DNA of 45,615 nucleotides from assembly GCF_000003605.2 (NCBI RefSeq), contig NW_003105106.1, forward strand, positions 18,202-63,816, given 5' to 3'. Source of the stretch: Saccoglossus kowalevskii (Eukaryota > Hemichordata > Enteropneusta > Harrimaniidae). A program made the translations under genes and the position numbers. Below the pieces are notes generated by a model, which did not search any database, was not told the DNA's origin, and worked only from the letters and a program-made list of their open reading frames with translations. Position 1 is the stretch's first letter. Each line of letters starts with the position of its first letter. Positions 9,272 through 41,500 of the stretch are shown in pieces.

Positions 9272-9535
9272 ATGATACAAATCCGGGAGGATAAACGATC
9301 AGCAGCGCCAAGGATGAAAGAATCAGGCAGTCACGATACAGGAAAACATTTGAAAGCTGTGACGGAAGACTATGGGAAAAATACCACGGCCCACGGTGTT
9401 TCTCATATCTTTTCAGCCACACATCCCTGTACCCGATTTACTTGGATGGCTATAGTGCTCCTGGCACTTGTAATTCTTGTAGTGCAAGTGGGTCTATTAA
9501 TCAGTCAATTTCTTGAATACAATGTTAATGTTGAG
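9272..9535 (+). CDS. Channel exon 1: cytosolic N-terminus and TM1
   Basis: Encodes residues 1-88. The N-terminus contains TTAHGVSHIF, in which H41-G42 is the HG motif conserved in DEG/ENaC subunits and needed for gating. A basic/aromatic stretch then leads into a hydrophobic helix at about 56-79 (WMAIVLLALVILVVQVGLLI) that is TM1. The exon ends GAG|GTGAGT in phase 0. The tract ctttttattgaag just upstream (9250-9263) looks like a splice acceptor, so the coding start probably lies inside a second exon whose 5' UTR partner is upstream; Met1 at 9272 is the first Met in frame, and Met15 is an alternative. Confidence 0.85.
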
Positions 9536-12500: not shown

Positions 12501-15500
12501 AATGAGGTTGTATATTCATCCTCTTCCATCGATCTTTGAATGGCACCTTTCCAGAATTTCTTGATGCCATTTAATAATGCATGTAGGGGTGCTGTGATTA
12601 TAGAGAAGCCAGGTATGAAACGTCAATAGTATCCCATTAGTCCCAGAAGTGTCCCAGTCTGTGACTGCAGCTATTTTTTCTGGTTCTGTTGAAATTCCTC
12701 GCTCTGACACAATATGACTCAGAAAACTGACCTATTGTTTGAACAGATAACATTTATCATGTTCGACTTTTAACCTTTCAACTTCCAACCTTGTAAAGAC
12801 CTTCTCTCACAATTCCATCATTCTGTCAGAACCGAAAATTAAATGTCATCAATATGTGACAACAAACTCTGATCTTCCAAGCAACCCTCTATCAGTTTTT
12901 GAAAACCTGCAGGGCCATTGCAAAGACCGAAAGGCATCTAAATATATTTGAGCAGACAAACGCTGCTGACATGTAATGCTGTCTGTGGGATGTCTTGTTC
13001 ATTCATTGCACACTGTAAGTATCCTTGTGCTAAATCGAGTGTGCTAAAGTTCTTGGCTCTCTTCATTGCTTCCATGGACACCCGGTTTTATGTGACTTAC
13101 GAGGGCTCTATGGTCCATACAATTATGAAGTCCACTATTTTTCTTTCTAACCAGAGTCGCTTATTAACTATAGGGACTCGCACTCGGATGCACGATGCCA
13201 CGTACACACCAGTCTTGTAGCAATTGTTTCACCTCTATTTGTAGATGTGAAGGTATGTGACGATGGGGTAAATAAACTGGTATATATTCAAGGATATGAA
13301 TTTGGTGTTTAATTCAAGTATTGCCATCCTTGCTAAATACAGTATAATGTTTAGTCTGCAGTTTTATCAGGATACCTCTTCAGTCAGAGGTCAAGTCACA
13401 GTCTAAAACATCTAACCTACGAGGAACTCGACAAAGAGCTACCAACCTGACCAACTTTTATCTCTTGTTCTTGGTCTATTTCATCAACACCATGAACTAC
13501 CTCTAAGCGCATACCGGAACATCTTCATTGTCCAAATTTGCAACACACACTGGAACATGGTTATGTTCAATAATAGGATAAAACCTGACTTTCAACAGAC
13601 TTCTAGGCAAAGAACTATCAGAGACCTCCAAATGCTCAATCATTGCGTCATACTTTCCATTACATACATTAATATTGCCACAATGAACTATGGTTTAACC
13701 CTTCTAAAGTGACTGTGATTACCCTCGGCACAATCATAAAGAAAATGATTGAACCGGATGATATTCATAGTAAAAAAACAAATCTTTTGGGCGGAAAATG
13801 GCCATACAGGATTTGGTTGCACCGAAAGTTCAATTTCATCCAACCAAATCGCCCAACTGATCATATACACGAATGTAAACAGTATCAACCAGCCAGTTGG
13901 AACACAAGTCAAAGATTGATGTATCGAAATCTAGCAAGTGTGTTACACGTGTGCGTGTTCAAAAAAACAGTGTTATACATTTGGCGCAAGTTTTGACTGG
14001 ACCCCACACAAAATCAATATATCCAGAATTAAACGCACCATTGTAGGCAAACTATTATCAAATGTCACATTTTTAATATTTTAAGAACCACGTTCTAATA
14101 ACACTCGCAGAAATAGGTAGCCAAAACTCCTTGTATAATAATATGCTATTCTTGGGACATTTATTTGTACAACTGAATACATTATGCTGACATGTATTCA
14201 CCTGTTTGAGGCAGTTTTTCGATACTTAACTTTTGGAAAAATATGAAGTTAAAACTAGTATATTAAAACTTTATTGATCTTGATTATGCAAATTATCTCG
14301 TAACCATTCGTGTCTTTGCATCCAAGAAGCTATATTTAAAATAATTTGAACTGAATTTACACTATTCATCTAATTGTTCTGACTTTTTCAGAGTGGGAAG
14401 AACCGTAACAATTTGTATGTGTATTTTGGGTGAAACTATCAAAATAGATATAATTGATTACAGTGTCATTGCAACACCACACCTTATCTCGATTATGTAC
14501 TCATACTAATCATATCCTCGTTTGGTTTCACACATATCCAGTTGACAAGGGTTGGTTTAATTATATATAGATGTCTAAATAGATTGGTAACTTGGCGAGT
14601 AATACAATTTTAGCTTTTCTAATTTCCGTTACGCTAAATAAATGTAAAAAAATGTGAAATAATTTTGAAATTTTGTGTCTCATACGCCCTCTCATGGAAA
14701 TAATGGAATAACATTCCACTAGCTAAGTAACGCACATTTCTGAAATAATATTCTCATGAGCTGTTAAGCCCAACTTGTTGAAGCATGTAGTCACGTCCTC
14801 ACTAGAACATTACATGTTGTTCAGTTCAAACGTCCACAGAATAGATGCAATAAACAGTTTCCAGATAAACAGCCAGTTCAGTCTTGTCAGCATCAACATT
14901 GTCTTGATGGACCCCATCTTCGCTAGCCAAGGTTTAAGTTTATTCGGCCAAGCCTCTAAACAGACCATGGCAGAACTGCCATCAATTATGCGTATTCTAA
15001 CAGCGCCCCCAGTAGTCAGTTGCGGATAATCATTGTCCAATCAGTTTGCGTGTTACAAATCCCTCTTTGGCGTTTCATTTTAATCAATATAGCGGCGCCC
15101 ATGAATTGTGATATTTGTGATGATAAAATTGCGAAAGTACAGGCAATCGACGCAGTTTTGTTTGGGAAGGATGTCTTCGTAGCAACAAAAACAGGAAATG
15201 GAATTTTGTTTTTTTATAATTTGCCTTACACGTGCTATTATAGAGAAACGATGATAGTTGAATAAAAGTTATGCGCAATTTGATTAGGGGTAACATAAAC
15301 AGTACATAACGTTGTAACCGTCCATATATTTCTTCATTGCAGATGGCCGTTGTTTCACCTAATCAACTGATGTTTCCAAGTGTCACAGTTTGTAATACCA
15401 ACAAACTAAGACGGTCTGCCATACGGGATTCTATTTATAGTGATTTGCTTGTTGTGGATACCAACTTCGTTCTACCATACTATGGTAGGTAGTGCGCGAT

Positions 15501-16540
15501 GCCTGTTTTTTGCGAACTAATAAAACTGTTCATAGAATAGAAGGTATAACTGAATAGAAATCAAACTATTTGAACATGCAAATCGTGACTGTGTTAATAT
15601 TTGTGTGCTGAAATCTGTAGTCTATCTTATACAATTTGGCGTAAGTGGCATATAAAATTGTAGAGCCTTGTTATCAACCTTTTTCTGACAGTAATATATT
15701 GTTTGAGCTCTTAATTGTTGTTATTTTATTTAACAGTATGAATTCGATATATTTAATGATTATTTCACAGTACCCTGTATGATTGGCGACTTCAACTGTA
15801 CCAATGGTATACATTGTATTAAACCTTACCTTGTGTGTGATGGAATAATTCATTGTGAAGATAAAAGTGATGAACATGATTGTTTTTTTGGTAAGCCAAA
15901 CAGGTGTAATAAAAACCAACTCGGCTCAAGTTTTCCTTTAAAAGTTAGGCTTTCAATATTATAAGCCTAAATATAATGATCTCGGCACAGGACGTGATTT
16001 AGAGAGATAACCGTAATACTATTGAATGTAAAAAATAATCAACAATTAAAGTTTGTAGTAGTGTTCGCTGTTCGTATCTCCTTTATACACATATTGTACT
16101 AATGATGCACATAAAGACGTAGTGTGCTTATTATAACATAACGTTTGATAAAAAAAAAACATCAACGTAACATTTAATTATGGAAAATATTGATCGTTTG
16201 GGAGCCTCTTCTATTTAAAAGTTACTGATTTTTACCTCAAACTGAGAATAGTAATCACTGGTAACGCCGAGGATTATTTTTACGTTGTCCTGTCGAAATA
16301 TGCACATCATATCTATCACTACACGTACATGCTTCATTTCAAAAATTATTAAAAAAAAACATGCTTTGATTTTCCAGAGGAGTGTGGAGAGGACGAATTC
16401 CATTGTGATAATGGTAGCGAACGTGGGACATGTATACCCTCAAATCTGGTTTGTGATAAAACTCTCGACTGTTATGATGGCCAAGACGAAGATAATTGTG
16501 GTAAGATTTGATTTGAATTACTTAAACAAACATTGGTTGA

Positions 16541-16606
<66 letters not shown>

Positions 16607-19600
16607 CACTATAAGGGCTGCCAACTTACAAATCATTTTATTAATATTGTCAGAATGTGACGTAATAAAAGATCATAGATGTATCCTCTCATTGGAGTGT
16701 ATTTCTAAGGTCAAAACATGCGATGGTGAATACGATTGTCGTGATGGCAGTGATGAAAGCAACAATGTCTGTGGTAAGCATGTATTATCTCAAAACTTCA
16801 TATGGTCTTGTTCATGAACTGGATAACAATCAAACAAAACACTTTAAGATATATTTTGTTCAGTGTCATTCTTCATGTTTCACCCAAATCTGGCTTGCAC
16901 CCAAACCAAGTGTCTTGTAAACAAACTTATCTAGCAAATATATGAATTAACATCACTTCGTCTAACACAAATTATGTTAAACAGCGGAAATCAATGTCTA
17001 CCAGATTTGTCATTCATAGCAAAAGGTGGTTTGAATACAAACCTCAACTTGATGCCTAAAGCAGCAAACACGTTGAGAAAATGTTCACACTCGTTTTACA
17101 CAATAGAGCGGTCACAACATTTACATGCGATTACTGTAGTCTATTTGTATCTACTAGGATTTAACACGCCTAATTTTAAAAATGCCTTGATCAATAAGTG
17201 TCTAAGTTACAGGGCAACTATTTAGATTTTTCCGAGGAACAATTAATGCATTTGACATGGGATAATTTGTAACAACAATAGCAATTAAACAGCAATTGGT
17301 ACATTATAAGTATGACATCCTTGTCATAATACTGGTTAATGCTAATTTGAATGACCAATTTTATTATGACATGCTAGGCTCAAACTTCCATTTTATTTGA
17401 GGATTCCAAATATAGAAGGACGCTTCAGCCAAACATTTGTCATTATTTAACAAATTCAAACTATATTATGTCATTTAGAGAACTATTTAAAGAAAGAAAT
17501 CACATAATTTATAACTGTTGATATTTTCTATAAATGCATGTTGTGAATATGCATTGTAATACAGCAAAAATACAGCATACACAAATGTTTTTACTCAAAA
17601 ACTGCTTGCTTTTCAACAGAGATCCCCTTGATGAATATTGCACCAATGGCCTTAGCCACAATGCAGAGTGGTACATACGCAAACGATACAGACCCTGACC
17701 AGGCACGTGACGGCGATATCGACACATGCTCTGTGACGTATAATACCTATCAACCATATTGGACAATCAACTTTGGTTCAGCTGCATTGGTACATGAAGT
17801 AACTATAACGCATAATGGAGACTATATATGTACGTAGAATTGTTTATACATTTATACATTAAACAATGTACATGAACGACATGGGACCTTGGTTAGTTTC
17901 TCTTACTAGAATTCTAATAGCTGGCGATCAGCGTGTTTGTTTTCAAAATTCTGCACACTGATCTAGTCCAGCAGTGTACATATTCAGACATTATCAAAGA
18001 TATACCTCCCGAGTTGGCAAATTTGTTATCATTTTACAGGTATTATTAACTGGACAAAGTCCCTGGCGTGCATGGTTAGTGTTGTTCGTACATTAATATA
18101 GCATGACTAATAATAATTGATGCGTCCGATGCGTTTTCAGAAATGCTTTTCAAAAAACAAAGTAATGTTCCAGATGTATATCGATGGGACAAACATATGC
18201 TTGTGTAATAATTCAGCAATTCGAATGACTCCTTCAGGATGTTTAGTCATCAGGCATCGTATTCAGATATTTAATATTGGATCATGCATAAAACAAATCA
18301 TTTGAAAGTAACATTCCAGAATCCAACAAACCATTCCTGTATCAATAGTAGGGGGTAGACATTTTCTGCGATTGTCAATGTCCTTTGCAGTGTTGTAAGC
18401 TGAAATGCATTATACTCGTTGTTCTGACAATTTTATATCCCTGGCGGGCTATATGTCGACGTGAAAATTATATAAAATGTTCACTTGGCAATATAGCTAA
18501 TGTACAACAATTTCAAGGGTCTTAGAGGTTATTGTTTACATGTACGAATTATAGGAGCATATGGGTACTGCATCATCACGGCAAATAACACGCACCAGTG
18601 TATAAACATTTATTTCATGGCAATACTACGATGTGATACGATGGAATACAATGCAATACGATACGATGATATATGAAAGTGTGGTTCTAAAATAATAAGA
18701 AATGCACCAAACTACGATACATAATGCAAAATACACACACTGTAGCAAATTAAATACACATCATAAATTCGAATAAAATGATTATAACAGGCACACTACA
18801 AACATGCATTTCAACAACAATACGTGCTTCCTTGTGAACATGGAAATGATACACAGTAGTGCAGTACGCAATCTTCACAAATATAATGAACAGGTGAATT
18901 CACAGTAAAATACTTTCGCAGAGAACGACACTGCTTACCTTGAATAGTGACGTATCCAAATTTGAACCAACACTGTTCCCAAACTCATCTGTGTGGCCAG
19001 TGGATAAACAAACCGTTTAGGAGCACACTGACTAAAACTGACTACACCTAGCCAGCATAGCACAACAAAGGTCGCTATGCCAGAGTGCAAAAACAAAAGG
19101 CCATCTGCACACCAGAAGAATGAAGGAGTTTGCCAATCACAGCTCAGTTTGCAGTTACATAGTTAATGGATTGGATTGAAATGCGAATAAAAATTTATTT
19201 GTATCAAGTTTTGGTTTGTAAAAAAGGGTATTTGTACTGTCAAAAGTACTGTACACACAGTCATGGATTCAGACTGTTGGCCAATAACTTGAAGAAATCG
19301 CACCTGTTTCATGTACATATTATAGCAAACAACATGCTGTCTTCAATTAAAAACCAACTGCTTAGTTCATACTGAAGGGCGATCATGCGTTTACACAGCT
19401 CGTCAATCTAAAATCCCATCATTTTGGGTGTACCATATGATAAGTTGAATTTATACATATTTGTCGAGTTTCAACAATTCATGAGCATTGCAATCAAACA
19501 ATTCCAATGTGCTCCCTTGCTGACAAATTTATTCATATGAAGTTTATATAGAAATTAGTTAAAACTAAACCGTACGCAAAAGTCAAGTTCTTTAATTTCA

Positions 19601-22600
19601 CATTCAGACATATTGATTATGTATTGAGTATACATTTAAATGATCTATGGTTTAGTATGTTAATTCTCTTTTACACAATAATTCACCTCGTTATAACATA
19701 AGATAATTGCGTTTATTGGTTATCCGACGCTAATAATGCAAAAGATACTTGTTTTACAACTGTTCTTCTGTACTTTTCGTGTCTGTCAGTTACAATTCAG
19801 TTTTGGCAAGAACTAACACTAACTATATTATGAGGTTATTACGAGGATACCGCAAAGTATGCGCAAAGTCATTACAGCGGGATTATCGACCGAACGCATG
19901 ACCCCCCGCTGGCCGATGCGCCTGCGTGAGTGCATACTTTGAGGTAACATTATTATTATACATCTTTTCCTTCCAATGCTACATCATGGGAATGGCGAAA
20001 TCCAAAACGTTTAGAACACAATCAGCGAACTTCATTGTGTGCAGTCCGGTCAAACCCTGGTGGCAGCCATGTTTGTTTTTATTATTATAAGACGCTTACG
20101 CGCGTAAGCATTCCATATTTGGAATTCGCATTTCCTAATATGGTAGGATAAAAATACCCCGTAAAATACCGCAAAATGCTACGCTGTAATTTATGGCGTT
20201 ACGGTGACAGATGTATAATAATAATATACTTTATTACATATTATTATACATCTGTCACCGTTTCCTTGGAAGTAAAATATGTATAATATAACTGCGCGTC
20301 AGATCTGATCTATTAAATTTCAAAGCCGAGACTCGATTTACTACGAATACGGTATGTATACTGGTATATTGTGACACATACGTACATACATGGCATCATT
20401 ATATATTCAAGATGCAAGTCTTACTGGCGCTGAAATAAGAGTTGGCGGAAACAACTATTTCCTAAACAATGAATTGTGTGCGGCGAGACTGCTACCAACT
20501 CAGACATCTAGTTTGACATTCACCGTAGAATGCGACAATCCATTATACGGACGGTATTTAAGTATACAGGTTATGGAATCGTCACAAGCTTTAATATTAT
20601 GTGAAGTGGAAATTATGGCGGTGGGTGAGTTTCAATTCAACACGCTGATACTGAATATTGTATGGATATCATATGCACAGCTATGAAGTATGTGTCAGTG
20701 CAAGCTATATGCTATGACGTAATATATGTTCAATCTAAGGATGTCATTTGAAATGGGGCACGTATACGATCGAAAAGCCGTTCCGCAGCACCTTTGAGCA
20801 ATATAAGAGTTTTTGCTACATGTAATAATCGTGTACTATATGCATGCGGTAAAAATGCTGTCACAAATGAATATAGGAAACATTTATTTATTCGAATATC
20901 CACATATCGCTAAAAAACAATAGAAAGACATTTTTCTCTCGATTTCAGCAAATGCTCTATCGAATGTGGCATATGGCAAACCTGCTGAACAAAGTAGTCA
21001 GTTCAAAGATGGGAGCGCCATTAAAGCTGTAGACGGTGATACAAGCAGTGATTACTCTCATCATAGTTGTATGCATACTCAGTTTGAATATGAGCCGTGG
21101 TGGAGAGTTGATACTGAATGTGAGTGTGGAATAGAATATATTGTGATCACCAACAGACAAGATTGCTGCAGTGAGTAAATATCAACTGGATAGATCGTTT
21201 TGAACTTTGTAATGTAAATTTACGCAAATTACATCAATGTACCGGCGGTCGAACTTTTTAGTGGATTTCAACCATTTATACAGTATATGCACTCACCGCT
21301 TATACCTTTCCTTTAACATTATATCCAACTCATTTCATTGTGTGAAAAACGTTGCACTTAGAAACAAATGATTTATATATTTTAGGCGATCGTTTAATTG
21401 GAGCCGAAGTAAGAATTGGAAATAGTAGGTTTCTTAATGAAAGTAACACGTTATGTGGTACAGTGACACGTGCGAATATTGAGGATGTTGACATTGTCAT
21501 TAACTGTGGCGATACCATTGTCGGAAGATATGTTAGTATTCAGATATTTAACAGAACAGATTACCTCCATGTTTGTGAAGTGAAAGCATTCGGAAACGGT
21601 ATTTTATTTATTTAATTATTTGTCACGTTTAACCAGACCCACAAGTTGAATTTATGTTATAATAAATAATCTACATCTGGCCATCTGACTAAAATCCAGT
21701 GTAGATATAGGCTCGAATTTCTATTTTTACTCTTTTATTTTTGTCATTGTTATTTTTGTTTTTGTTTTATGTTATTAAATTCATATGTATCGTATCTCGA
21801 TCGCCTTAAATGTATTTGACGCAATGCAATTGGAAATCTCGTACAACGGGACTAGTTTTTGACGAGTTTTGTTGACCAGTCACAGAGCGCTTTACAAAAC
21901 AAGTTGTCTGACTAACGCATGCACGATTCGTCGTTCTTTAAAAGAGAGATCGAACGAAGACTGTGATTTGGAGGTAAGTTTAGCAATTTGTATGCAAAAA
22001 TTATAGCTTTTGTGAGTAATTACGGCTGGGGAGCAGAATTTATTGGATTTAAGTGCATTGTGAAAAATATACATACTTTGAAGACGACGTTACCGTCCTA
22101 CCCACAGGCGCTTGTCACGTTTCTTAATGGGTTGTCTGTATGTGTAAGAACGAGATTATATACGTACACGCATATAATAAATATAGACAAGGTAAAAAAG
22201 CTTCGTCCATTTCTTTCTTACACCAACTCGGAAACTGTCCACAATTTATCAATTCACAATGTTTTAATCCCTTAAATTTAGCTACAAATGAAAAAAATCA
22301 CTCAGGCGATCGGTAACAAAACATGCGTACTACTGCCAACTTAACAGGCTCACGACTATGGTGACTTAAAATATAAATCAGCTCTAAGAAACGAAACGAA
22401 ATTACTTAAATGTTAGTTTAGACAACGAATGAAGGTACTTGTTTTAGTCTGTAAACGAGTTTTCGGCGAGTGTCTCAAGTTGTTTGTTGTTCCTCTCCAC
22501 GTTACATTTCGAAGAGTTTGTAACTCGTACTCTGATTGGTTGACTCACGCGAGATTTGCACGAGATTTCAGAGTCAGATGTTGTTAAGACGCCGAGATAC

Positions 22601-25600
22601 GATATATAAACAAATTATAACGGCAAGTCAAACCGATATATATTCAGAAATAAACAAAAAAAAACAATAAAATATATAATAATAAAATAAAATAAAATAA
22701 AATAATTGGACTCCATTATTATTAGAAAGTGTTTTAATTTAATCTTTGTTTTATCTGGAATGAGAAGTGTGTATAGTGTTTCTTACGTTTCACTCTCCAG
22801 TTGTGGCTGAGTCGCTTTCAAATGTAGCATTAAATAAGTCTGCGTATATAAGCAGTGTTTGGTATGGTAATACAGCTGATAAAGCCGTGGATGGCAACAC
22901 CTACCCAGTACTTAATTCAGGAACATGTATCCACAGTGCTGAAGAAAGTGAACCATGGTGGAGAGTTGATCTTGGTGGTATTTACTTTGTGTACAAAGTG
23001 GCTATATACAATAGACAGGATTGTTGTGGTATGTAACATAATATTGAAAATATAGTGAATGCTCTGGTTATGCTCTGATATTTGATAGTTATATTTTAAT
23101 TTTAGAACCATATGTGACAAGTTAGAGAGTAATATATGTACCAACCATAGACGTTGTGGAATACATAACACATATATCTCACATGCAATCATTTGCTCAA
23201 ACAAATGTGTTAGTAGTGATCATTAAAGACAATCAGAGTATACATAGTGATGTTTTTATATGACATTTGATATGTCTATAGTACCATATTGTCCTCTCGC
23301 AGCACAGCGATTGGCCGGAGCTGCTGTTCGTGTTGGTTACTATGAAGATGCAAAACGAAACCACCGATGTGGTCAACAAATAGTCCCTCAGATTTCGCGT
23401 CGATGGAGAATAAATAGGAAATGTCATGTTCCTATTTTGGGCAGATACGTCAGCATACAGCTGGAGGGAGTTGGTAGTGGATTTCTCCATATATGTGAGG
23501 TTAAGGTATTTGCAGATGGTAGGTAAACACACCAGAACTATATGAGGTATTTTGGGGGACAAACGAAAGAATGATTAAAAACTTACAATCTTACAATGGG
23601 CAAAATATCTCAGTATATGAGGTATGTGTATTTGACAATTCAATTATAACTGCACAAAACGTGAAAATAAATCATTCTCCTATATATCGCACATATTGGT
23701 TTTATTATGTTTATGTCTCTACAGTTATCACGCTCCATGAACTAGAGATCTTTGCTTGAACACCTTGAGAAAATACTGCATTAAATTAACAAATGTTAAA
23801 CGGATATATATCTAACATGTAAATGTGTATTATTATGCTTTTTGATTTGATGAATTGTTTCTTTCAGAGTTGGTGATCAATCCAGTTGAAAAAATAAAAC
23901 AGCGAGCACTATTTGCATTCTTTGACAAACAACAATTTAAACGTCTTATGTCGGACAGTGGCAAAGACAAAGTATACAATGACGTGTCGCTTGAAACGTG
24001 TCTAGATAACTGTTACTTCCAGAAAACATTTGTTTGTAAATCGTTTGACTATAGGCAAGATGTACATGAATGTACTATTTATAGCGTCGACGCCAGTGAC
24101 AAAAACTCTAGCTTAATGGTTGACGAGCATTTCAATTATTATCAAAGACTTGTACACGGAGGTATGTACATGAGTTCTCATATTTATATCGTTTGATGTA
24201 TGATCGCAAAAAACATATGTATTGACTGTATAAGGTGAGATGAGCGAACAGAATGTATTCACTTTTCTTATGTACCTTTGTAGTTTTCATTGCATCGGGC
24301 AACTCATCCGATTGTCCATCTGGTATGTGGCAATGTGGTTCCGGCGAATGTTTACATACATACAGAATATGTGATGTCATCAACGATTGCCTAGACTCAT
24401 CTGATGAAGAAGATTGTACTTTCAAAGAAAGTGGTGGGTATAATCCTTCCTGTCAAATGTCATCTCAAAAAGTATTGAAATCTTGAATGCATTAAAATGA
24501 TTTGCTAAAGGAATATGAATATATAGCTATATGATTATTGTTATATTACAACTATGAAATATAATTGACTAATACATACACTGAGGATTCTGAACATATC
24601 CTCTCCTGAGTTTCTTCCTCGTTTCATTTGACAGACCCACCGGCCTTTCCCATCCCTTTTGACAGACCCTACCCTCAGCTCGGATACATATACCACACAA
24701 CACTTTTCTGCACATGTTCTGGTATTTTCCATGTCATCTAACAGTCTCATTGTATCATTTACTATGAGGATTCTGGACATATCCTCCCATAGGACCTTCC
24801 CGCTTTAGTTGGCACACCCTACCGACCTGTCTTCCCCCATTCTGTAGACCACCACCAACCTTAGGTCAAATACATATGCCACATACGCACTCTTTTTTTG
24901 CACACTTTCCGGTATTTTCCTTGTGTTTAATAGTCTCATTGTATCATTCATATACACAGCGTGGAAACTGGAGATATACACCCTCTAGGACCTTTCCCGT
25001 TCCGTTTGGCGGCTCTGCATAACTATATGCCCCCCTGTCAACCATTTGAACATATCCATTTCTGCGAGTATACCTTGGGTATATGCGAAGAACACAACAT
25101 TTGTGCCAGGCTAAAAGTCGAGAAACTGTAAGGTCCATCTTTTCATGAGGGTCCGTAAGGGCAATCCAATTCCTGTACCATGTAGGACTTGTGACAGGGG
25201 AGTTTATTGAGAGATGAAACTCCGATGAGCCTGTGACCGAGATAAAATAGAGGCATATCCTATAGAGACATATCCCTCAACAAGGGATTAAAGATTTATT
25301 TAGCATTTACTAAAGCATTTACTGTCTGGGAGATATATATCCTCCCTTAGCTTGTAAGACTATGGACAGGAAGGCTCACGACTATGTTGACTTGGTGATA
25401 ACAATACGAGTGATCATATTTTCATGCAGACAGAGTGGGTAGTTGGCAGATGGATGTACCTCAAGATCATCCCCTTGGCACTGACCAAAGAGACCAAAGA
25501 GTCGCACATTTCACATTCACAGAAGAGATTAATGTAAAAAAAAGATAATAGCACTCTGCTCAGCTCTATTTCCCATAAAGGACCATGTGGACATGCGCTC

Positions 25601-31600: not shown

Positions 31601-34600
31601 ATTTGTATATATGGATGATACATTCAGACAAGCAAATATATGAAAAATACCAGAAAGCGCATAAAAGAGTGTATATGTGGTATATATATAGAGCTGATGG
31701 TAAGGTTTGACAAAATGAGAGGTAAAGAACGATGGGGTCTGCCAAATGTGTGGGAAAGGCTCTAGATATGTCCAGAATATTCATTTGAGACATTATGGCA
31801 AATACATATTTTTGAATTACAGAGATACGAGGACTAGAACATAAAAGTCTGTCAACATGGATGGACGTTTTTAAAGACGTCACACGGGACGTGACTGTAT
31901 ATCAACGCTTTTTCCAAAGTTTCTATCAAGACAGTCTATTTTACCGTGTCAAAGGTGAAGATCCTCCCGACTGGTCCCGATTCAAGACATTTAGCAGCAC
32001 ACCAGATCACAGTGACCTTAGACAAGTTCTGAAACTGACCGAGGTCGAGATGTCTGCACGAGCTCATCAGATCGAGGACTTCATTCTGCAGTGTACCTTT
32101 GCATCAGAGAAATGTGGACCAAGGTATTGCAAGGGAAATGTATACTTAAATGACGGAGGTCGTTGCACAGCACATGACCGAATCTCATGTAAACAAACAA
32201 TGTATATTATACACGTTGTATACATTGTATGTGTCCCTATCGAACACGTCGCCTCAAGACGACCACCATTTTTTCAAAAGTGTTTTTTGTCATGAACACG
32301 TGAATTTGAACAAATATTACCTCCGGATTTGTCATTATACATATACAAGTATATGGTCTTGCAGTTTCTTGAAGTGCATGAGAAATGCCTTGAAATCTTT
32401 GAAAAAAACCTCAAAAACAACTTTACAAAATAGACTAAATTTGAACACGTGATGGAAGTGTAAATTAGATAATTATTGGTTTAATTGAAACATATATATT
32501 CGTGCGACCGACGACTCACCATCGCGTCCGGGAAAGATAATTATAGCGGTATTACAGCGTCACATGTAACGGGGTCTTAGTAATTAGTATTTGCAGTGTC
32601 AACGTTTTTTCTCTTGTTATATGAAAAGTATATATATCGCCAATGTCAAGTTAAATTTTCATAAAAAACAATCATAGAAATGCATAGAGATTTTAAAAGT
32701 GAAAGTTAACAGTGTTCATTCCTGAGGATATATATCGTCAACAGTGCATATATATCGCCAATGTCAAGTTAAATTTTCATAAATAACATTTGTTGAAATG
32801 CATAAAAAGTGTTCATTCATAAGGATATATATCGCCAATGTCAAGTAAAATCTTTATAAATCAAATTGTTATATGTATTATTCATACTTTCAGCGACTTT
32901 CTAACGTTCCAAGATGATAACTATGGAAACTGTTTTCAATTTAATGCAAAAAGCAATGACAAAATACAATGGGCAATGCGACCAGGATCACAATATGGTA
33001 AGTAACGAAAATAAACATAATCCAAGCCACATGTACATTCAGTAAATCCAACCCATAAATTCAGTCACTGAAACAAAACAAAAAACAAGTCCTCAACAAA
33101 CAAACCCTGGTCCTCACAATTAATCATAAACTTATCAAGCCAGGAACATGTTCATTCACTAAACAGAAATCAGTTCAATGATTTTTTGTTTATTGCAGGC
33201 TTGCAACTAACTCTGTTCACGGAGCAAGAAGAGTATCTCAGTATATATGGACAGGATTCTGGTGCTAAGGTTACAATCCTTCCACGTGGCATTGTATCTT
33301 TTCCAGTTGATGAGGGTATTACTGTGAAACCTGGAACGATCACTTCCATAGCTCTACGCAAGGTGAAAGTTTTCACATTGAATGATACTGTAGTCACTCA
33401 ATATTGTTTTGTATGCAACACATACAAGAGTCAGTAAATACTTTGTTGATGAAAGAAAATAAGGTAAAATTCGCAATCCATGGCCAATTAGTTCTTATCT
33501 CGTGACAAGTGAATCGTAATCAGCCTTCTTTATTGAATGACCGGTGTCCTCAATGAGTATTAATCATAATCTCTTTATGGGGTCAATGGTTAATTTAAAA
33601 TGTCCACAGTGAGTCATGTACAGATCATTCTTATATTCGGGAAAAGAATGAGTCTGTTGTTGATAGGTGATATTAGTTTATACAATTACTGATGGGATTA
33701 TAAGTAGTGCGCCCTCATTGGAACATTTTTCATTTTTGTTTTATTTGGTCTTCTTTGTGGCATGAATACATTAAATATATTCTTTATTTGCTTTATGGTA
33801 CCGTAATTCATAATAACATGCAGTTTCTTGAGTTTGGAAATTTTGTTTTGAATTGTTTAGTAAATGTTTCTTGTGAATTTGACTGCCTGGTGTGCCTTAT
33901 TATAGCTGATAGCAAAACGTTGTTAAATGACGATGTCGGAAGGTGTAGTTGTGGGAGTGCCACAGTATTTAGTGAAAATAGTGGTCATGATGGTCTCACT
34001 TGTCTACCCGAACTACACCTATAGGGACTGTGAAGATTCGCAATATCATAAATTGTGAGATCATTTGTACATGTCAGAGTGGAGATCATGATTTCTGTGA
34101 CAAACAATCCTGTTAGTATCAACATCGGATGCAATGTTTTTCGAGGTGTGGCATGACGTTTGGCATGAACTGGTCAGTAATGTGTTCTAGATTTAAAATG
34201 ATTAGATATACAATGATAAGTTATAACTCATTTTCGTGAAGCAGGTATGGCTTGAGTTGAAATGAGATACGTGTGGACAGTATGTGATGATATGATGATG
34301 AGATAGATGCGGATTATGCTGATGGATTCACTAGCTTTTGCACAACACCAGGGCCGTGGGAATGGTCTTCCTGCATGAGATGAATGTTTTGTTCAAACGA
34401 ATAATTGAGAATACGGATTAGTATCTTTGATGAATACATGAGGTGTGGAAGTGTACCAAAATGCTAAATGAAATACACATTCTGTTTTAGAAAAGATAGC
34501 ATTTTATATATAACTAATATCTTGAACAAATAAACAATCACGCAACAACAACAACAACAACAACATACATTTCCCCCCTCATATATATATATACTATGAT

Positions 34601-37600
34601 ACAGACAAGGTGAAACAAAAAAACGTTCAATGCTCATCATCATTAGTGCGTCAAGCGAATTATCAATTTCATCTGACGATTTCAATTTTTAAAATTCAGT
34701 ATTGTGCTATTCCAAGGAATCAAGCGATATATCCACAATTAAGATATCCAGAGTTATCCCATCGAATCGCTGTTAGCCTGCTGTGATTAATTAAGATTCG
34801 GTTACATGACATTGAATAAAAACGAATATTACATGGTATATTGCCCGCGAATGGGATATTACATGGGTATATCACATAGATTGCGTCACTGAAGCTACTG
34901 CGCAACGATACTGCGCATAACAAAGTGTCGTTTGCTGCACTGATACTTCCCCTGCCGCTGTTGCTTTCGGGTTGCTTTGAAGGTTTTGATGGAACTTTGA
35001 CCATCCGAAATAGACAGATAACATGCCAGAATGAATGTTAAGTAAGATACTATGTTTTGATGTTTAGGGTATTCTTTATATGAAGCAAAAATGTACAGCA
35101 AAGCCGCTACTGGAACATCGCAGCCGGGATTTCTGCGGTGCATTCTACGCTGTGAGCTTTTCTGAGCGTTTCCCGCCGATGCTAACCGAAAATGCTCTTA
35201 GCCGAGTGACTTGTGAATAGAAGCTGTGGTACTTTAGTGAGAAAGTAATTTTAGTCAAAATAGAGTGATTCACGCTGCTGAAAAAACTATCCGTGGTTGC
35301 AAATATTTTACTGTGTGTATTTCGCAGACTTTATAAAATATAAAACAGTGCTTTCTTCAAAATAAGCGTTGTTATTTTGTGGGAGGGCGGGTGTGAGTGA
35401 TGTATGGTAGATGTAATTGTGCATGGTGGATGTCTGCTCGATGTGATATTACCCTTACCAACATGTGTTATTATTTAATTGTACATCGGTGAACACAAAC
35501 ATATTGATAAGTTTTACACCCGTATATAATGAGAGATAGTACATTGTGTTTTAGTACATGTATAGCATAATAGTATATTGTTCATGCGAACATGTAAAAC
35601 AAGGTATGGGCTATTTTAATTGAGACACTGGTTAGGGTGGCATAAGATTTGTTGAGCTATTTATCACTGGGATACATTTGTGGACAGGCCTCACCTGACC
35701 ACTCGTTATTACAACTTTAATCGAGTTGCAGAAATGTGATTATTGAGTATGTCTTTATGTTGATGTGTGATATTTGTATTGTCGAAGGATAGGTTATTTG
35801 TTTTGTTTTGTTTATTCCCCTTAGTAAATAAACAATATATTGTTTTTTGTGTTTAATATGTTGGTACTCGAATAAATATATTTTATAATACTATTTATTC
35901 GTTTAGAAAGATACAGATCGACAGTCATGGCCATATGGTAATTGTACCCAAGGACATATCGAACCCACAGTATCAGGCCAGCAGCATAATAGTTCATATT
36001 CTATACTTGTAAGTATTATCACTTAACACGTCAAGTTGAAAGTACTGCTGATTTTACACAGAATAATTTGTATTACTTTGCATTGTGCAAATGCAATTTG
36101 TATATATGTTTACATTAGAAATTTGAAATTATAATCCAGTATAATTTATTATTCCTTGTCCTAATTATAGTCGTGTCAGAAAGCATGCGCAGAAAATGCA
36201 TTAATACACTACTGTGGTTGTGCTGAGTATATATTTACGGACGCACCACGATGTAAACTTTTAAACGAAACACAAGGTATGTTACGGATAACTAGGACAT
36301 ATGTCCCGTTGTATTTGTATTATACGAGTTCGACAGAACTATAAAAAACATGTCTGCGTTTGTCATTAATAGGCATAAATTTTAACATAACAAGCAAAGG
36401 AGGCAATTTTTTTCAAATTTCAAACGTAACCACAAGAACTTTGACTTGAGATTTCAATTATGCAAATTATGTGTGTAAATTTTATCATTTTATGCACAAG
36501 TTTTAATGCCATATCATGTTGTACTTAAATAGATTTATGTCGGCAATTAACCAGATATTTAACCAATATTGGTGAGATTAATTGTAAATGCCCTTCGCCA
36601 TGCAAGTGAGTATTGCAACCTAAATGTAATTATATGTGGCCTCAAGAATTCAGTATTCGCCATTCAATGTTATGCATGCAATTCAAATAAAAATGAACCC
36701 ATTTTTATAATAACATGCGAACGTGTTATAATCATTTGAACATAATTTTACATCACTAATGTTAGCTCATAATGTCAATAGATCATGTACGGACGTTACA
36801 TTTTATTCATCATTCTTCTAATGCTTAATGTCGGCCAAATACAATAAAACGTGTTGATGGGTATTTACGTTTTTAAAAGCAAATAACGTATAAATTACTT
36901 TTTCAGAGAAACCAAGTATGACATGACCTTATCTCAGTCTCAGTGGCCTTCTGATGTATATCTTGTAGGTATTTTATAATATTATGAACTTACTAATAAC
37001 TATCATGTAAATGATTATGTATATAATTAGATGAAGGACGCATTTTGTTATTCTGTACAGAACAAGCTTCTAAAAGCGTTAAAGTGGAAGAATTTCAAGT
37101 TGAAGAATGTGAACGACATGCAATCTGCTAGGTAATGAACATTCACTACTACTATACATTATGTAATAAAGTTGCATAATATTATACATAATATCCGTAT
37201 ATGTGCTGTATTGAATTGAATATAATAATTCACAAACTTAAATGAATTATATGTTGATGCTCTGATATTGCTATATATATATATTATTTAATTCTTCAAA
37301 TAATTATTACCAAACAAACTACATATAATATACATATAGTTTCCATAATTCCACAATAAGATAATATGAGGTTATTACGAAGATACCTCAAATTATGCAC
37401 GAACACAGTACAGCGTGAGTATAGACCAACGCGCAGCGAAGGTCAATGCGACGGCGTACTTTCTGAGTGCATACTTACGGCACGCTGTAACTTATGGCGT
37501 TACGGTGACAGATGTATAATAATATCACTTATTGTATCATAATGTACATGATATTCTCAGTTTCAAATCTGTTTAGCATTTTACAGATTACTTGTATATT

Positions 37601-38243
37601 GGTATTATCTGTACTACCAATTCATGAAACATCCCTGTTTCTGTATATGTTATGGTTGGGGGGTACGTGTGCATTTATATAAAGGGTACATGAAATCTGA
37701 GTGCAATTTATTTGACATAATGATGATTGAGTTTATTTTACAATAATATTTTTAATTGCTGCTTTTATTAATTTGACATGTATACCTCATTAATTGCGCC
37801 ATGATTTAATGATATATACTAACATTTATATTATGTATGGCAGATCAAACCTGGTAAGACTAGAAATATACTTCGAAACATTAAACTATGAATCAGTACA
37901 CGAACAACCTGCGTATAAGGTAATATTTTGTTATGCTAATATGACCATCCAAAGTGCTGTATTTCTAAACTAACTGTTCAGATTACATGAATTAACACAT
38001 GATTGTAGTGTTGTTCTTTTTGTACAAACGATTAATTATCGTCCGTGATTATTTCATATACTCATATTTCAGTGGGAAGACATTCTCAGTGACATTGGAG
38101 GGACAATGGGGCTTTATATCGGCATATCAATTATATCCATCTGTGAATTTGTGAGTTTTATCGTATTACTTTGCTGGAAATTACCCAAGAAGGAAGCTGT
38201 ACAACCACGCGTTGAGGAACAAGAACATTTAATACCACATTAA
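9272..38243 (+). CDS. DEG/ENaC channel with LDLa, F-type lectin and PAN ectodomain (23 exons)
   Basis: Predicted multi-exon gene for an amiloride-sensitive-type cation channel subunit of the plasma membrane. Joining exons 9272-9535, 15343-15484, 15771-15890, 16378-16500, 16654-16773, 17620-17829, 20412-20624, 20949-21170, 21386-21598, 22801-23028, 23303-23518, 23868-24161, 24284-24433, 31823-32123, 32894-32997, 33199-33362, 35907-36008, 36171-36276, 36533-36605, 36907-36964, 37061-37131, 37844-37919 and 38073-38243 gives one open frame of about 1246 residues; every junction has GT/AG and matching phase. Order: cytosolic N-terminus, TM1 (56-79), LDLa x3 (136-256), F-type lectin x3 (257-690), PAN (691-788), LDLa (789-838), DEG/ENaC palm, thumb and remaining ectodomain (839-1190), TM2 (about 1199-1226), short cytosolic tail. 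The family normally has 500-700 residues; the core without the insert is 543. Ion selectivity and ligand are not readable. The start Met is the first in the open frame; an upstream non-coding exon is likely because an acceptor-like tract precedes it. Confidence 0.88.
9916..10203 (-). repeat. MITE-like repeat family 2, copy A
   Basis: Bases 10085-10203 are the reverse complement of 20049-20168 with high identity. Landmarks on + are cctaccatattaggaaatgc, tatggaatgattacgcgc and aaacaaacatggctgcc. The remainder up to about 9916 is GC-richer than its surroundings and probably belongs to the same insertion. No open frame; a non-autonomous DNA element is likely. Confidence 0.65.
10204..11929. other. 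Intron 1 sequence without recognised features
   Basis: Bases 10440-11000 are less AT-rich and carry two open minus-strand frames of 87-90 codons, but neither resembles a known protein. From 11090 the sequence is plain AT-rich intron. Confidence 0.35.
11930..13690 (-). mobile_element. Ty3/Gypsy-like retrotransposon remnant (pol), internally deleted
   Basis: Reading the minus strand from 13690 down: IEHLEVSDSSLPRSLL (pre-RT), then IEVKQLLQDWCVRGIVHPSA (start of RT, near 13190-13240), LVRKKNSGLHN, LQCAMNEQDIPQTA-like text, MPFGL-like AFRSLQWPCRF, SERGISTEPEKIAAVTDW (12655-12710), then RNase H text ending RWVSKL-like WVSKLSQFNF and MNADDLSRR (12120-12220), and within about 60 bp integrase core text RACTVAKMLVKERLVDYG and LHSDQGQNFESEV (11940-12070). 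Many stops and frameshifts make it a dead copy. The 200 or so residues usually between RNase H and the integrase core are missing. No LTRs were recognised. It lies antisense to the channel gene within intron 1. Confidence 0.85.
13700..15342. other. Remainder of intron 1
   Basis: AT-rich; no exon recognised. The overlapping open frames at 13688-13996 and 14775-15040 occur on both strands and have no family pattern. Confidence 0.4.
15343..15484 (+). CDS. Channel exon 2: post-TM1 segment
   Basis: Encodes residues 89-135 plus one base. FPSVTVCNTNKLRRSAI is the family hallmark directly after TM1 (typically FPxVTVCNxNxxRxS), the start of the palm domain. Acceptor ttcattgcag, donor TATG|GTAGGT. It enters in phase 0 and leaves in phase 1; this phase-1 donor is the site at which all the extra ectodomain exons are spliced in. 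Confidence 0.9.
15771..15890 (+). CDS. Channel exon 3: LDLa domain 1
   Basis: A phase 1-1 exon of 120 nt encoding one LDL-receptor class A module (residues 136-175). Six cysteines with typical spacing are present, and the calcium-cage end reads CEDKSDEHDC, matching the family's C-x-D-x-S-D-E-x-x-C. LDLa modules fold around one Ca2+ and bind proteins or basic ligands. A damaged copy of this exon lies at 41394-41500. Confidence 0.93.
16378..16500 (+). CDS. Channel exon 4: LDLa domain 2
   Basis: A phase 1-1 exon of 123 nt, residues 176-216. It starts EECGEDEFHCDNGSERGTC and ends CYDGQDEDNC, with six cysteines. The usual Ser of the calcium loop is Gln (DGQDE), a tolerated variant. Splice sites are tttccag and TGTG|GTAAGA. 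Confidence 0.92.
16544..16601. repeat. (AT)n microsatellite in intron 4
   Basis: About 58 bp of nearly uninterrupted AT dinucleotides, 44 bp after the LDLa2 exon and 52 bp before the LDLa3 exon. Confidence 0.95.
16654..16773 (+). CDS. Channel exon 5: LDLa domain 3
   Basis: A phase 1-1 exon of 120 nt, residues 217-256. Six cysteines and the ending CRDGSDESNNVC identify an LDLa module. It lies only 153 bp after exon 4; the intron between them carries a long (AT)n run. Confidence 0.92.
17620..17829 (+). CDS. Channel exon 6: F-type lectin domain 1, N-terminal half (degenerate)
   Basis: A phase 1-1 exon of 210 nt, residues 257-326. NIAPMALATMQSGTYAND, then QARDGDIDTCS and YWTINFGSAALVHEVTI, follow the F-type lectin (FTP, eel fucolectin/tachylectin-4) pattern N-V-A-x-x-K-x-A-x-Q-S ... 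A-x-D-G ... W-W-x-V-D-L. The usual WWRVDL is YWTINF, the glycan-contacting His is absent, and the paired cysteines at the half-domain end are missing (NGDYI), so glycan binding is probably lost. The donor tatat|gtacgt is less certain than the others, but it keeps frame with exon 7. Confidence 0.8.
17830..19823. other. Intron 6, first part
   Basis: No exon was recognised between the two halves of lectin domain 1. Bases 18640-18680 hold an imperfect run of gatacgatg units. Confidence 0.4.
19831..20261 (+). repeat. MITE-like repeat family 2, copy B, with terminal hairpin
   Basis: It begins tgaggttattacgaggatacc, shared with copy C at 37366, and contains 20049-20168, shared in inverted orientation with copy A. 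It ends in a near-perfect hairpin: acggtgacagatgtataata (20201-20220, pairing two bases further) faces tattatacatctgtcaccgt (20242-20261). Non-coding; inserted in intron 6 about 150 bp before exon 7. Confidence 0.7.
20412..20624 (+). CDS. Channel exon 7: F-type lectin domain 1, C-terminal half
   Basis: A phase 1-1 exon of 213 nt, residues 327-397. LTGAEIRVGGNNYF, then GRYLSIQVME and LILCEVEIMAVG, are the second half of an FTP domain (family pattern L-x-G-A-E-I-R-V-G ... G-R-Y-V-x-I ... L-x-L-C-E-V-x-V). The acceptor attcaag is weak in pyrimidines. The intron before it is long (2.6 kb) and contains a MITE-like insertion ending about 150 bp upstream. Confidence 0.85.
20949..21170 (+). CDS. Channel exon 8: F-type lectin domain 2, N-terminal half
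   Basis: A phase 1-1 exon of 222 nt, residues 398-471. LSNVAYGKPAEQSSQF, AVDGDTSSDYSHHSCMH and EPWWRVDTECECGIEYIVI are a good FTP half-domain. The putative fucose ligand residues His440, Arg467 and Asp469 are here, and the exon ends in the adjacent Cys-Cys pair (NRQDCC). Oddity: CEC inserted where the family has L-G-R. Confidence 0.92.
21386..21598 (+). CDS. Channel exon 9: F-type lectin domain 2, C-terminal half
   Basis: A phase 1-1 exon of 213 nt, residues 472-542. It begins DRLIGAEVRIGNSRF, giving Arg474 as the last member of H-X26-R-X-D-X4-R, and continues VGRYVSIQIFN and HVCEVKAFGN, the normal end of an FTP domain. Acceptor atattttag, donor AACG|GTATTT. Confidence 0.92.
21599..22800. 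other. Intron 9
   Basis: No exon recognised. A short (AAATA)n run lies at 22680-22705, about 100 bp before exon 10. Confidence 0.5.
22801..23028 (+). CDS. Channel exon 10: F-type lectin domain 3, N-terminal half
   Basis: A phase 1-1 exon of 228 nt, residues 543-618. SLSNVALNKSAYISSVWYG, AVDGNTYPVLNSGTCIH and EPWWRVDLGGIYFVYKVAI form the most canonical of the three lectin copies. His587, Arg614 and Asp616 occupy the fucose-binding positions and the exon ends NRQDCC. Confidence 0.94.
23303..23518 (+). CDS. Channel exon 11: F-type lectin domain 3, C-terminal half
   Basis: A phase 1-1 exon of 216 nt, residues 619-690. AQRLAGAAVRVGYYEDAKRN supplies Arg621 of the binding motif; LGRYVSIQLEGVGSGFLHIC and EVKVFADG close the domain. 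Acceptor cctctcgcag, donor GATG|GTAGGT. Confidence 0.92.
23725..23759 (+). other. Lectin-tail fragment: relic or alternative terminal exon
   Basis: After a good acceptor (tttatgtctctacag) the phase-1 frame reads VITLHELEIFA then stop. This imitates the last beta strand of an F-type lectin (compare HICEVKVFADG ending exon 11). It is either the leftover tail of a fourth lectin domain or an alternative last exon that would end the protein before PAN, LDLa4 and TM2. Only about 35 bp can be supported. Confidence 0.4.
23868..24161 (+). CDS. Channel exon 12: PAN/apple domain
   Basis: A phase 1-1 exon of 294 nt, residues 691-788. The pattern ETCLDNCYFQKTFVCKSFDY, followed by HECTIYSVDASDKN and FNYYQRL, matches a PAN_1/apple module (C-xxx-C, then C-x-S-F-x-Y, then C-x-L/I), a disulfide-stabilised protein- or carbohydrate-binding fold. 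Four core cysteines are visible. The family assignment is by pattern only. Confidence 0.82.
24284..24433 (+). CDS. Channel exon 13: LDLa domain 4
   Basis: A phase 1-1 exon of 150 nt, residues 789-838. CPSGMWQCGSGECLHTYRIC and CLDSSDEEDC give the six cysteines and calcium-binding acidic box of an LDLa module. It is the last of the inserted ectodomain exons; a 7.4-kb intron separates it from the resumed channel core. The donor is AGTG|GTGGGT. Confidence 0.92.
24582..25012. repeat. Tandem duplication with about 181-190 bp period
   Basis: tgaggattctgaacatatcc (24582) recurs as tgaggattctggacatatcc near 24764, and both copies continue through cttccc/cctttccc, tacatatRccaca, ctggtattttcc/ccggtattttcc and agtctcattgtatcatt. 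A third partial copy starts near 24957 (tatacaccctctaggacc). Imperfect, about 2.3 units. Confidence 0.75.
25013..28600. other. Intron 13: decayed repeat-rich DNA
   Basis: GC content is higher than in the gene's other introns and coding-like stretches occur on both strands (for example 26888-27157 minus), consistent with dead mobile elements, but no family could be named. Confidence 0.4.
28600..28866 (+). pseudogene. Possible CARD/death-fold-like remnant
   Basis: The + strand reads LYRHGLITTDLYHGLLHNGS then TQVLHYNAIVIRLTIEAKQAVPE, resembling the second half of a CARD (L-Y-x-H-G-(L/I)-I-T-x-x-x-Y...T-x-x-x-x-x-x-I-x-x-L...G-x-x-A). Upstream, in another frame, WDTLDRYINLLDL may be the same coding unit after a frameshift. 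No splice sites join it to the channel gene, so it is probably a dead insertion in intron 13. The resemblance is by eye only. Confidence 0.2.
28870..31822. other. Intron 13, remainder
   Basis: No channel exon was recognised. Bases 29340-29870 have LTR-like character on the minus strand, with a TATA-like string (cctataaataggc) near 29707-29721, but no partner repeat was found. Bases 30000-31100 have coding-like but stop-broken text. Confidence 0.35.
31823..32123 (+). CDS. Channel exon 14: DEG/ENaC ectodomain resumes (finger/palm)
   Basis: Residues 839-938, entering in phase 1 and leaving in phase 2. DLRQVLKLTEVEMSARAHQI then EDFILQCTFASEKCGP matches the family region preceding the first palm cysteines (typically ...DFIxxCxFxGxxC). 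Acceptor gaattacag, donor CAAG|GTATTG. A dispersed repeat begins only 28 bp after this donor. Confidence 0.87.
32151..32270. repeat. Dispersed repeat family 1, copy 2
   Basis: Same orientation as 4233-4352, sharing ctcatgtaaacaaac, cacgttgtatac, tgtccctatcgaacac and gacgaccacc. It lies directly after the exon 14 donor. Confidence 0.65.
32629..32862. repeat. Three-copy tandem repeat in intron 14
   Basis: The unit tatatatcgccaatgtcaag (then ttaaattttcataaa) occurs at 32631, about 32750 and about 32826, with intervening atgcataRagN and gtgttcattc blocks also repeated. Copy spacing is unequal (about 119 and 76 bp). The array ends about 30 bp before exon 15. Confidence 0.85.
32894..32997 (+). CDS. 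Channel exon 15: palm, GNCFQFN segment
   Basis: Residues 939-973, phase 2 to 1. DFLTFQDDNYGNCFQFNAKS is the DEG/ENaC signature around the G-N-C-(F/Y)-x-F-N motif. Acceptor atactttcag, donor TATG|GTAAGT. Confidence 0.93.
33199..33362 (+). CDS. Channel exon 16: beta-ball/palm strands
   Basis: Residues 974-1028, phase 1 to 0. GLQLTLFTEQEEYLS, SGAKVTILPRGIVSFPVDEG and VKPGTITSIALRK are the strongly conserved channel region (family: G-L-x-L-x-L...GA-x-V-x-I-H...F-P...G-x-x-V-x-P-G-x-x-T-x-I). The usual His of V-x-I-H is Leu. Confidence 0.94.
33363..35906. other. Intron 16
   Basis: 2.5 kb with no exon recognised. Contains an (ACA)n run at 34545-34565 and a short (AT)n at 34580-34594. Bases 34880-35220 are less AT-rich, without a family match. 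Confidence 0.5.
35907..36008 (+). CDS. Channel exon 17: upper thumb entry
   Basis: Residues 1029-1062, phase 0 to 0. SWPYGNCTQG is the conserved P-(Y/W)-G-N-C segment opening the thumb. The exon ends NSSYSIL, the run into the cysteine-rich thumb. Acceptor ttattcgtttag, donor ACTT|GTAAGT. Confidence 0.9.
36171..36276 (+). CDS. Channel exon 18: cysteine-rich thumb, part 1
   Basis: Residues 1063-1097, phase 0 to 1. SCQKACAENALIHYCGCAEY then APRCKLL has the family cysteine pattern C-xxx-C...C-x-C...C of the disulfide-stacked thumb. Confidence 0.92.
36533..36605 (+). CDS. Channel exon 19: cysteine-rich thumb, part 2
   Basis: Residues 1098-1121, phase 1 to 2. DLCRQLTRYL and CKCPSPCK contribute the C-x-C-P-x-P-C motif shared by nearly all DEG/ENaC subunits. 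Donor GCAA|GTGAGT. Confidence 0.92.
36907..36964 (+). CDS. Channel exon 20: ETxY / SxSxWPS motif
   Basis: Residues 1122-1141, phase 2 to 0. Only 58 nt, but it reads ETKYDMTLSQSQWPSDVYL, the textbook continuation of C-x-P-C-(x)-E-T-x-Y-x-x-x-x-S-x-S-x-W-P-S. It is found only by joining phases with exon 19. Confidence 0.92.
37061..37131 (+). CDS. Channel exon 21: post-thumb linker
   Basis: Residues 1142-1164, phase 0 to 2. It encodes a lysine-rich helical segment (LLKALKWKNFKLKNVN), lower in family conservation but in frame between two certain exons. Acceptor ttctgtacag, donor CTAG|GTAATG. Confidence 0.85.
37366..37524 (+). repeat. MITE-like repeat family 2, copy C
   Basis: It begins atgaggttattacgaagatacc and ends ggcgttacggtgacagatgt followed by ataataat, matching both ends of copy B with a shorter middle. 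It lies in intron 21, the channel's 21st intron. The region shared with copy A is deleted here. Confidence 0.7.
37844..37919 (+). CDS. Channel exon 22: palm strand before TM2
   Basis: Residues 1165-1190, phase 2 to 0. NLVRLEIYFETLNYESVHEQ and PAYK match the conserved N-L-x-x-L-x-I-Y-F-E-x-L-N-Y-E...A-Y run leading to the pore. Confidence 0.93.
38073..38243 (+). CDS. Channel exon 23: pore, TM2 and C-terminus
   Basis: Residues 1191-1246 and stop TAA. DILSDIGGTMGLYIGISIIS contains the pre-TM2 helix and the G1207-I-S1209 selectivity filter (family GxS), followed by E1215 and a hydrophobic stretch to about 1226. Asp1193 occupies the degenerin gating position. The cytosolic tail is short, about 20 residues (KLPKKEAVQPRVEEQEHLIP). 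No PY ubiquitin-ligase motif is present. Confidence 0.94.
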   Translation, partial: WEDILSDIGGTMGLYIGISIISICEFVSFIVLLCWKLPKKEAVQPRVEEQEHLIPH

Positions 38244-41393: not shown

Positions 41394-41500
41394 TACCCTG
41401 TATGGATGGCGATTTCATCTTTACAAATGCTAAACATTGTATTAAACCATATCTTGTGTGTGATGGAATGATTAGTTGCAATAAAATTATTGGAAAATGA
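41394..41500 (+). pseudogene. Orphan, broken copy of the channel's LDLa1 exon
   Basis: After an acceptor (ttttactccacag) the phase-1 frame reads VPCMDGDF, then HCIKPYLVCDGMISC, against PCMIGDF and HCIKPYLVCDGIIHC in exon 3 (15771-15890). The upstream intron sequence is also alike (ttaatgattatttca). The second cysteine is Phe, the calcium loop is lost, and the frame runs into TGA at 41498-41500 with no donor. It is a relic of a duplicated gene or exon. Confidence 0.85.

Follow-up and report, generated by a model that had tools for sequence, protein, structure and literature searches.

A predicted DEG/ENaC channel gene of Saccoglossus kowalevskii with an F-type lectin, LDLa and PAN cassette in its finger region

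Results

The window, which is the whole stretch of 45,615 nt of Saccoglossus kowalevskii DNA that was analysed, contains on its forward strand a gene that was rebuilt from the DNA as 23 exons between 9272 and 38243 (Table 1), giving 3741 nt and 1246 residues with a single terminal stop. Exon boundaries were set by eye on frame and splice consensus; all 22 introns are GT-AG, and the frame is kept throughout without an internal stop. The start codon at 9272 is tentative and is the least certain end of the model. The first-pass annotation had described 23 exons joining in frame and a DEG/ENaC core broken after residue 135 by 703 residues, and the rebuilt model reproduces both. The intervening cassette corresponds to exons 3–13 (2109 nt, or 703 codons, starting at residue 136). 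All 11 of these exons are of phase 1-1 and the flanking junctions, at the end of exon 2 and the start of exon 14, are likewise phase 1, so that inclusion, omission or replacement of the cassette would leave the frame intact. Since splicing of exon 2 directly to exon 14 is in frame, a short isoform may exist beside the long form.

Table 1. Exons of the channel gene, with positions in the window and the evidence for each.
Feature	Position	Strand	Basis
Exon 1: cytosolic N-terminus with HG motif, TM1	9272..9535	+	model, Pfam, hydropathy; start tentative
Exon 2: post-TM1 strand FPSVTVCN, start of finger; ends in phase 1	15343..15484	+	model, ENaC alignment
Exon 3: LDLa 1, phase 1-1	15771..15890	+	model, Pfam, paralogs
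Exon 4: LDLa 2, phase 1-1	16378..16500	+	model, Pfam, paralogs
Exon 5: LDLa 3, phase 1-1	16654..16773	+	model, Pfam, paralogs
Exon 6: F-type lectin 1, first half; without fucose-contact motif	17620..17829	+	model, Pfam, motif search
Exon 7: F-type lectin 1, second half	20412..20624	+	model, paralogs
Exon 8: F-type lectin 2, first half; fucose-site His, R-x-D-CC	20949..21170	+	model, motif search
Exon 9: F-type lectin 2, second half	21386..21598	+	model, paralogs
Exon 10: F-type lectin 3, first half; fucose site in register with 1k12	22801..23028	+	model, motif, alignment
Exon 11: F-type lectin 3, second half	23303..23518	+	model, paralogs
Exon 12: PAN domain, phase 1-1	23868..24161	+	model, Pfam, PAN search
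Exon 13: LDLa 4, phase 1-1	24284..24433	+	model, Pfam, paralogs
Exon 14: remaining finger, return to channel core	31823..32123	+	model, ENaC alignment, paralogs
Exon 15: channel core, GNCFQFN	32894..32997	+	model, Pfam, paralogs
Exon 16: channel core	33199..33362	+	model, Pfam, paralogs
Exon 17: channel core	35907..36008	+	model, Pfam, paralogs
Exon 18: channel core, cysteine-rich	36171..36276	+	model, Pfam, paralogs
Exon 19: channel core, CKCPSPC	36533..36605	+	model, Pfam, paralogs
Exon 20: channel core	36907..36964	+	model, Pfam, paralogs
Exon 21: channel core	37061..37131	+	model, Pfam, paralogs
Exon 22: pre-TM2 segment	37844..37919	+	model, Pfam, paralogs
Exon 23: GIS filter, TM2, short C-terminal tail, stop	38073..38243	+	model, hydropathy

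Two minor features were also seen in the window. On the 3′ side of the gene, 41393–41479 (+) holds a decayed extra exon 3 (LDLa 1), 76% alike over 29 residues and with one cysteine lost. Inside intron 1, at 12516–12731 (−), lies a short open frame which we take to resemble a fragment of a retrotransposon pol gene.

The domain types that had been named from the sequence (ASC, LDLa, F-type lectin and PAN) were each recovered by a Pfam search. The ASC match (E 4.6e-88; 296.7 bits against a cut-off of 23.6) falls in two stretches, the better of them at residues 905–1219, C-terminal of the cassette. Within the insert only lectin, LDLa and PAN matches were found, in the order three LDLa, three F-type lectins, PAN and LDLa: Ldl_recept_a in four stretches (E 4.5e-27), F5_F8_type_C_2, the F-type lectin match, in three (E 2.6e-45), and PAN_1 (E 1.5e-6; 28.4 bits against a cut-off of 21.4). 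At the hydropathy threshold used there are just two hydrophobic segments, 51–85 and 1201–1228, at the places expected of TM1 and TM2, suggesting that the cassette is extracellular, given the usual topology. Hallmarks of DEG/ENaC proteins include an HG motif before TM1, a GxS filter and 14 extracellular core cysteines. Here AHG is found at residue 40 and GIS inside TM2, and the 14 core cysteines are present both in this gene and in a paralog (B, below); in a second paralog (A), 13 were counted by a script whose cut-off excluded the exon 2 cysteine, and that cysteine was seen by eye. All three full gene models retain the GIS filter and both TM segments. On the sequence features that were tested, the predicted protein is a DEG/ENaC channel.

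The 572 Mb assembly contains two further genes, A and B on contig C3786, that match all 23 exons in the same order and on one strand, with identities to the 9272–38243 gene of 72–73% in the core and 78–79% in the cassette. Nei-Gojobori dN/dS for the three pairs is 0.18–0.23 for the core and 0.21–0.23 for the cassette. By single segment the ratio ranges from 0.06 to 0.44, the highest values being those of lectin 3 (0.36–0.44), the least constrained part of the head, and of exons 1–2 (0.29–0.42). In the paralog models exons 1 and 6 of A and exons 1 and 5 of B were set by hand, and exon 1 of A has no upstream ATG, which leaves the modelled N-terminus shortened. Equality of phase among the three models is partly built in, because the phases of the 9272–38243 gene were imposed on the splice sites of A and B. 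A check imposing neither phase nor length, which took the nearest AG and GT no more than 9 bases from the alignment ends of exons 2–16 and 18–22 of A and B (leaving out exons 1, 17 and 23), gave the expected phase at 40/40 starts and 39/40 ends (79/80). The sole miss is the end of exon 6 of B, where a second GT two bases further fits.

Five partial copies were collinear where read. Contig C309 carries two of them (exons 2–10, and exons 2 and 5–15) and C3245 a third (exons 8–16), which has its exon-2-like match on the opposite strand. Those on C2851 (exons 1–12) and C3226 (exons 1–4 and lectin exons through to exon 16) are more diverged. Because exon order, phases and a dN/dS of about 0.2 are shared with the paralogs, and the five partial copies agree, the block is read as part of the channel gene. 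Nor is the architecture a chance arrangement, since two other genes have the 23 exons in the same order with dN/dS near 0.2. The proposal of a single gene with a lectin/LDLa/PAN ectodomain inserted in the finger is borne out by these collinear paralogs under purifying selection, and the predicted one-gene architecture is, on this evidence, almost certainly correct.

Two local departures were seen in the A–B comparison. After exon 5 of B there is a GC-AG intron (donor GCAAGT), the corresponding intron being GT-AG in A and in the 9272–38243 gene. The dS between A and B is 0.10 in lectin 3 (exons 10–11), where the remaining segments give 0.28–0.80, a difference suggesting that this lectin underwent gene conversion recently.

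Glycan binding, also proposed at the outset, is supported as far as the fucose-contact motif goes. In passages of the F-type lectin review PMC5712786, the fucose contacts of the eel lectin are given as His52, Arg79, Arg86 and the Cys82-Cys83 pair; the motif is printed there as HX24RXDX4(R/K), and the residue numbers imply 26 residues between His and Arg. With a His–Arg spacing of 24–27 allowed in the search, the motif was found at spacing 26 in lectins 2 and 3 of the 9272–38243 gene, A and B (6/6), and was absent from lectin 1 in all three full models. When lectin 3 was aligned with the eel structure 1k12, the His, Arg, Asp, Cys-Cys and Arg fell in register. Lectins 2 and 3 are thus predicted to bind fucosylated glycans, with somewhat better than even confidence. 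In the partial copies, inspected by eye, lectin 2 has lost its final basic residue in the C309 copy at 15 kb and its His in the C3226 copy, while lectin 3 has lost its CC pair in the C309 and C3245 copies. With a site that varies in this way, some copies may bind sugar differently or have ceased to bind it; the variation would reflect either diversified specificity or loss in some members.

To place the insertion, the core without its cassette was compared with solved structures, and matched ENaC, ASIC and FaNaC chains (32 distinct sequences at E ≤0.001), the best being gamma ENaC (9blr_C, E 3.4e-50). That alignment, which does not fix exact helix boundaries, stops at query residue 122 (chain 116) and resumes at 216 (chain 250), and the insertion point after query residue 135 falls inside the gap. 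According to passages of PMC6197857 and PMC7413742, the GRIP domain of ENaC sits between α1 and α2 of the finger and controls gating, and in the ENaC cryo-EM work GRIP cleavage is proposed to move finger and thumb (PMC6197857). The gap thus holds the insertion point, and GRIP lies between α1 and α2, which places cassette and GRIP in the same interval. The cassette itself carries no sign of kinship to GRIP. Two cleavage patterns were searched for, RX[KR]R and RxxR. The extracellular part of all three full gene models has no RX[KR]R, and RxxR within the head is confined to three places in lectin 3 of the 9272–38243 gene, being found in neither paralog; two matches lie outside the head, RCRR beside TM1 on its inner edge and RQYR within the tail of A.

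Other loci in the genome also show modules after an exon like exon 2. At least 33 such anchors (query start ≤10, end ≤60) were obtained with 150 of 390 candidates scored, and 22 of the 33 listed have LDLa matches within 8 kb downstream on the same strand, LDLa being absent at 11. Four families (F-type lectin, kringle, PAN and C-type lectin) were searched for within 22 kb past these 22 anchors: seven are followed by F-type lectins, five by kringles, one by PAN only and nine by none, with a PAN match also present at 6/7 F-type lectin loci and 3/5 kringle loci. Anchored spans hold 16/97 F-type lectin, 14/86 kringle and 17/52 PAN matches. These head assignments are associations by position, order and strand, most loci not having been read base by base. 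One kringle gene, on C4796, was read in the DNA and has exon 2, LDLa exons, two kringles (E 9.2e-23 and 3.2e-20) and then, on the same strand, exons matching 16–23, exon 20 only at E 0.004; exons 14–15 were not found in the pieces read, which leave out C4796:101001-103000. At another locus (C2340), exons 1–2 are followed by three LDLa, and exon 14 was not found within the 10 kb examined. As judged from these associations, the gene belongs to a family in the S. kowalevskii genome whose members have differing heads at one and the same site.

C-type lectins were rejected as an alternative head, 0/147 matches lying within anchored spans (150 of 480 candidates scored). Elsewhere, C-type lectin exons occur about every 8 kb on both strands of C4110:4287-36599, a tandem array, and at C4257:95160-232529 F-type lectin exons are densely clustered, again on both strands, with no ASC match listed for that contig. 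Six ASC matches of about 200 profile positions each, five on C3473 and one on C2355, were also seen; 5/6 have no internal stop, suggesting that these are probably intron-poor channel genes.

Discussion

Vertebrate ENaC (alpha, beta and gamma) gives the best sequence matches to the core among solved structures and likewise has a regulatory insert between finger α1 and α2. The ENaC insert is a small β-strand domain with protease sites, whereas here the interval is filled by lectin, LDLa and PAN modules, 703 residues in all, in which no furin-type motif is conserved, and a protease-sensitive GRIP domain as in ENaC proper was not found. ASIC (ASIC2 6l6p, E 4.3e-44) and FaNaC (7yvb, E 5.9e-43) share the DEG/ENaC core sequence, but the finger of the present gene holds additional modules. 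Matches to LRP2, VLDLR and LDLR, members of the LDL-receptor family, were obtained for the three tandem LDLa repeats; unlike in that family, these repeats open a channel insert. Lectin 3 matches the F-type lectin structures 3cqo (E 4.6e-37) and 1k12 (E 1.4e-21), presumably striped bass FBP32 and eel AAA, respectively.

The published setting of these modules is broad. Parts of PMC5712786 describe F-type lectins as single domains, as tandem repeats, and in combination with pentraxin, CCP, transmembrane and other domains, and the word 'channel' does not occur in the available main text of that review. Similarly, 'LDL' does not occur in the available text of the DEG/ENaC papers PMC10507113, PMC9949801 and PMC9234716, nor 'lectin' in that of the two queried for it. 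Among the matches listed from the titles and abstract beginnings of the open-access literature, no channel of this layout was described. The modules themselves (F-type lectin, LDLa and PAN) are ordinary; their combination and placement are new to us.

The reading that we prefer is that the gene encodes a DEG/ENaC subunit with a 703-residue head in its finger, and that ligand binding to this head shifts channel opening; the probability of this whole chain is put at about 0.45. Insertion into the finger most likely came about by phase 1-1 exon shuffling, class 1-1 modules being, according to passages of PMC8001218, the usual currency of exon shuffling in metazoans. Subunits would form a trimer, and several heads would thus be displayed per channel, with lectins 2 and 3 binding fucosylated glycans and the LDLa and PAN modules binding protein ligands. 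Ligand binding, or a pull on the head, would be passed to finger and thumb and shift the opening of the channel, as GRIP does in ENaC; alternatively, binding by the head would leave the channel anchored. We infer a gating role from the position shared with GRIP, not from homology of the insert, and the proposed coupling of head to gate falls somewhat short of an even chance. The initial proposal that glycans gate or localise the channel would be consistent with this position.

An anchoring or tethering role is, at well under even odds itself, nearly as likely as gating. Here the head would only hold the channel to glycans of the matrix, mucus or cuticle; this would set where the channel sits or tether it mechanically, and direct chemical gating would play no part. 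Lectin, LDLa and PAN all belong to the binding modules, several such modules per chain would fit adhesion, and the heads vary between paralogs. A pure anchor, however, could be placed at any extracellular position, whereas the copies that were read have the block after exon 2, within the interval through which ENaC gating is controlled.

The finger interval common to GRIP and the insert would also suit an inhibitory plug removed by proteases, like the ENaC GRIP, but we consider this improbable. Of the two patterns searched for, neither gave a conserved furin-type motif, so a GRIP-like release is not supported; the RxxR sites, present in one gene and neither paralog, tell against it as well, as does a Pfam search that sees only lectin, LDLa and PAN in the insert. 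About as improbable is a product that serves in recognition without conducting ions, the channel fold being kept only as the scaffold of a receptor. A very large binding ectodomain and multiple copies with differing heads would accord with such a product, but the retained GIS filter and TM segments of the three full models, the 14 core cysteines of the 9272–38243 gene and B, and the constraint on the core (dN/dS 0.18–0.23) argue against it. Finally, the lectin/LDLa exons might constitute a gene of their own within intron 2 of an otherwise ordinary channel, as the long intron between exons 13 and 14 (7.4 kb) and the in-frame exon 2 to 14 junction might allow. This is highly implausible and is rejected on the collinear paralogs: nesting and order are repeated in both, with exon 13–14 gaps of 0.6 and 1.4 kb, and in parts of the five further copies, and the cassette is uniformly phase 1-1 in a model without a stop.

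Extended to the family, the preferred gating reading would make the one finger site a socket for exchangeable heads (F-type lectin, kringle, PAN and LDLa), yielding a family of ligand-gated sodium channels that includes a glycan-gated class. We regard this wider proposal as rather unlikely on present evidence.

DEG/ENaC channels open to protons, peptides, force or proteolysis, and channels of the present family may sense sugars or proteins outside the cell. The gene is a probable case of an ion channel that gained modules by class 1-1 exon shuffling, and its relatives provide natural insertions for studying how the finger controls the pore. Lectin and kringle heads in the gating interval, if their role is as proposed, would give sugars, mucus, microbes, gametes and matrix outside the cell a direct route to membrane voltage. 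If the finger site does act as a socket, exon shuffling would give one channel core many chemical specificities, including gating by fucosylated glycans.
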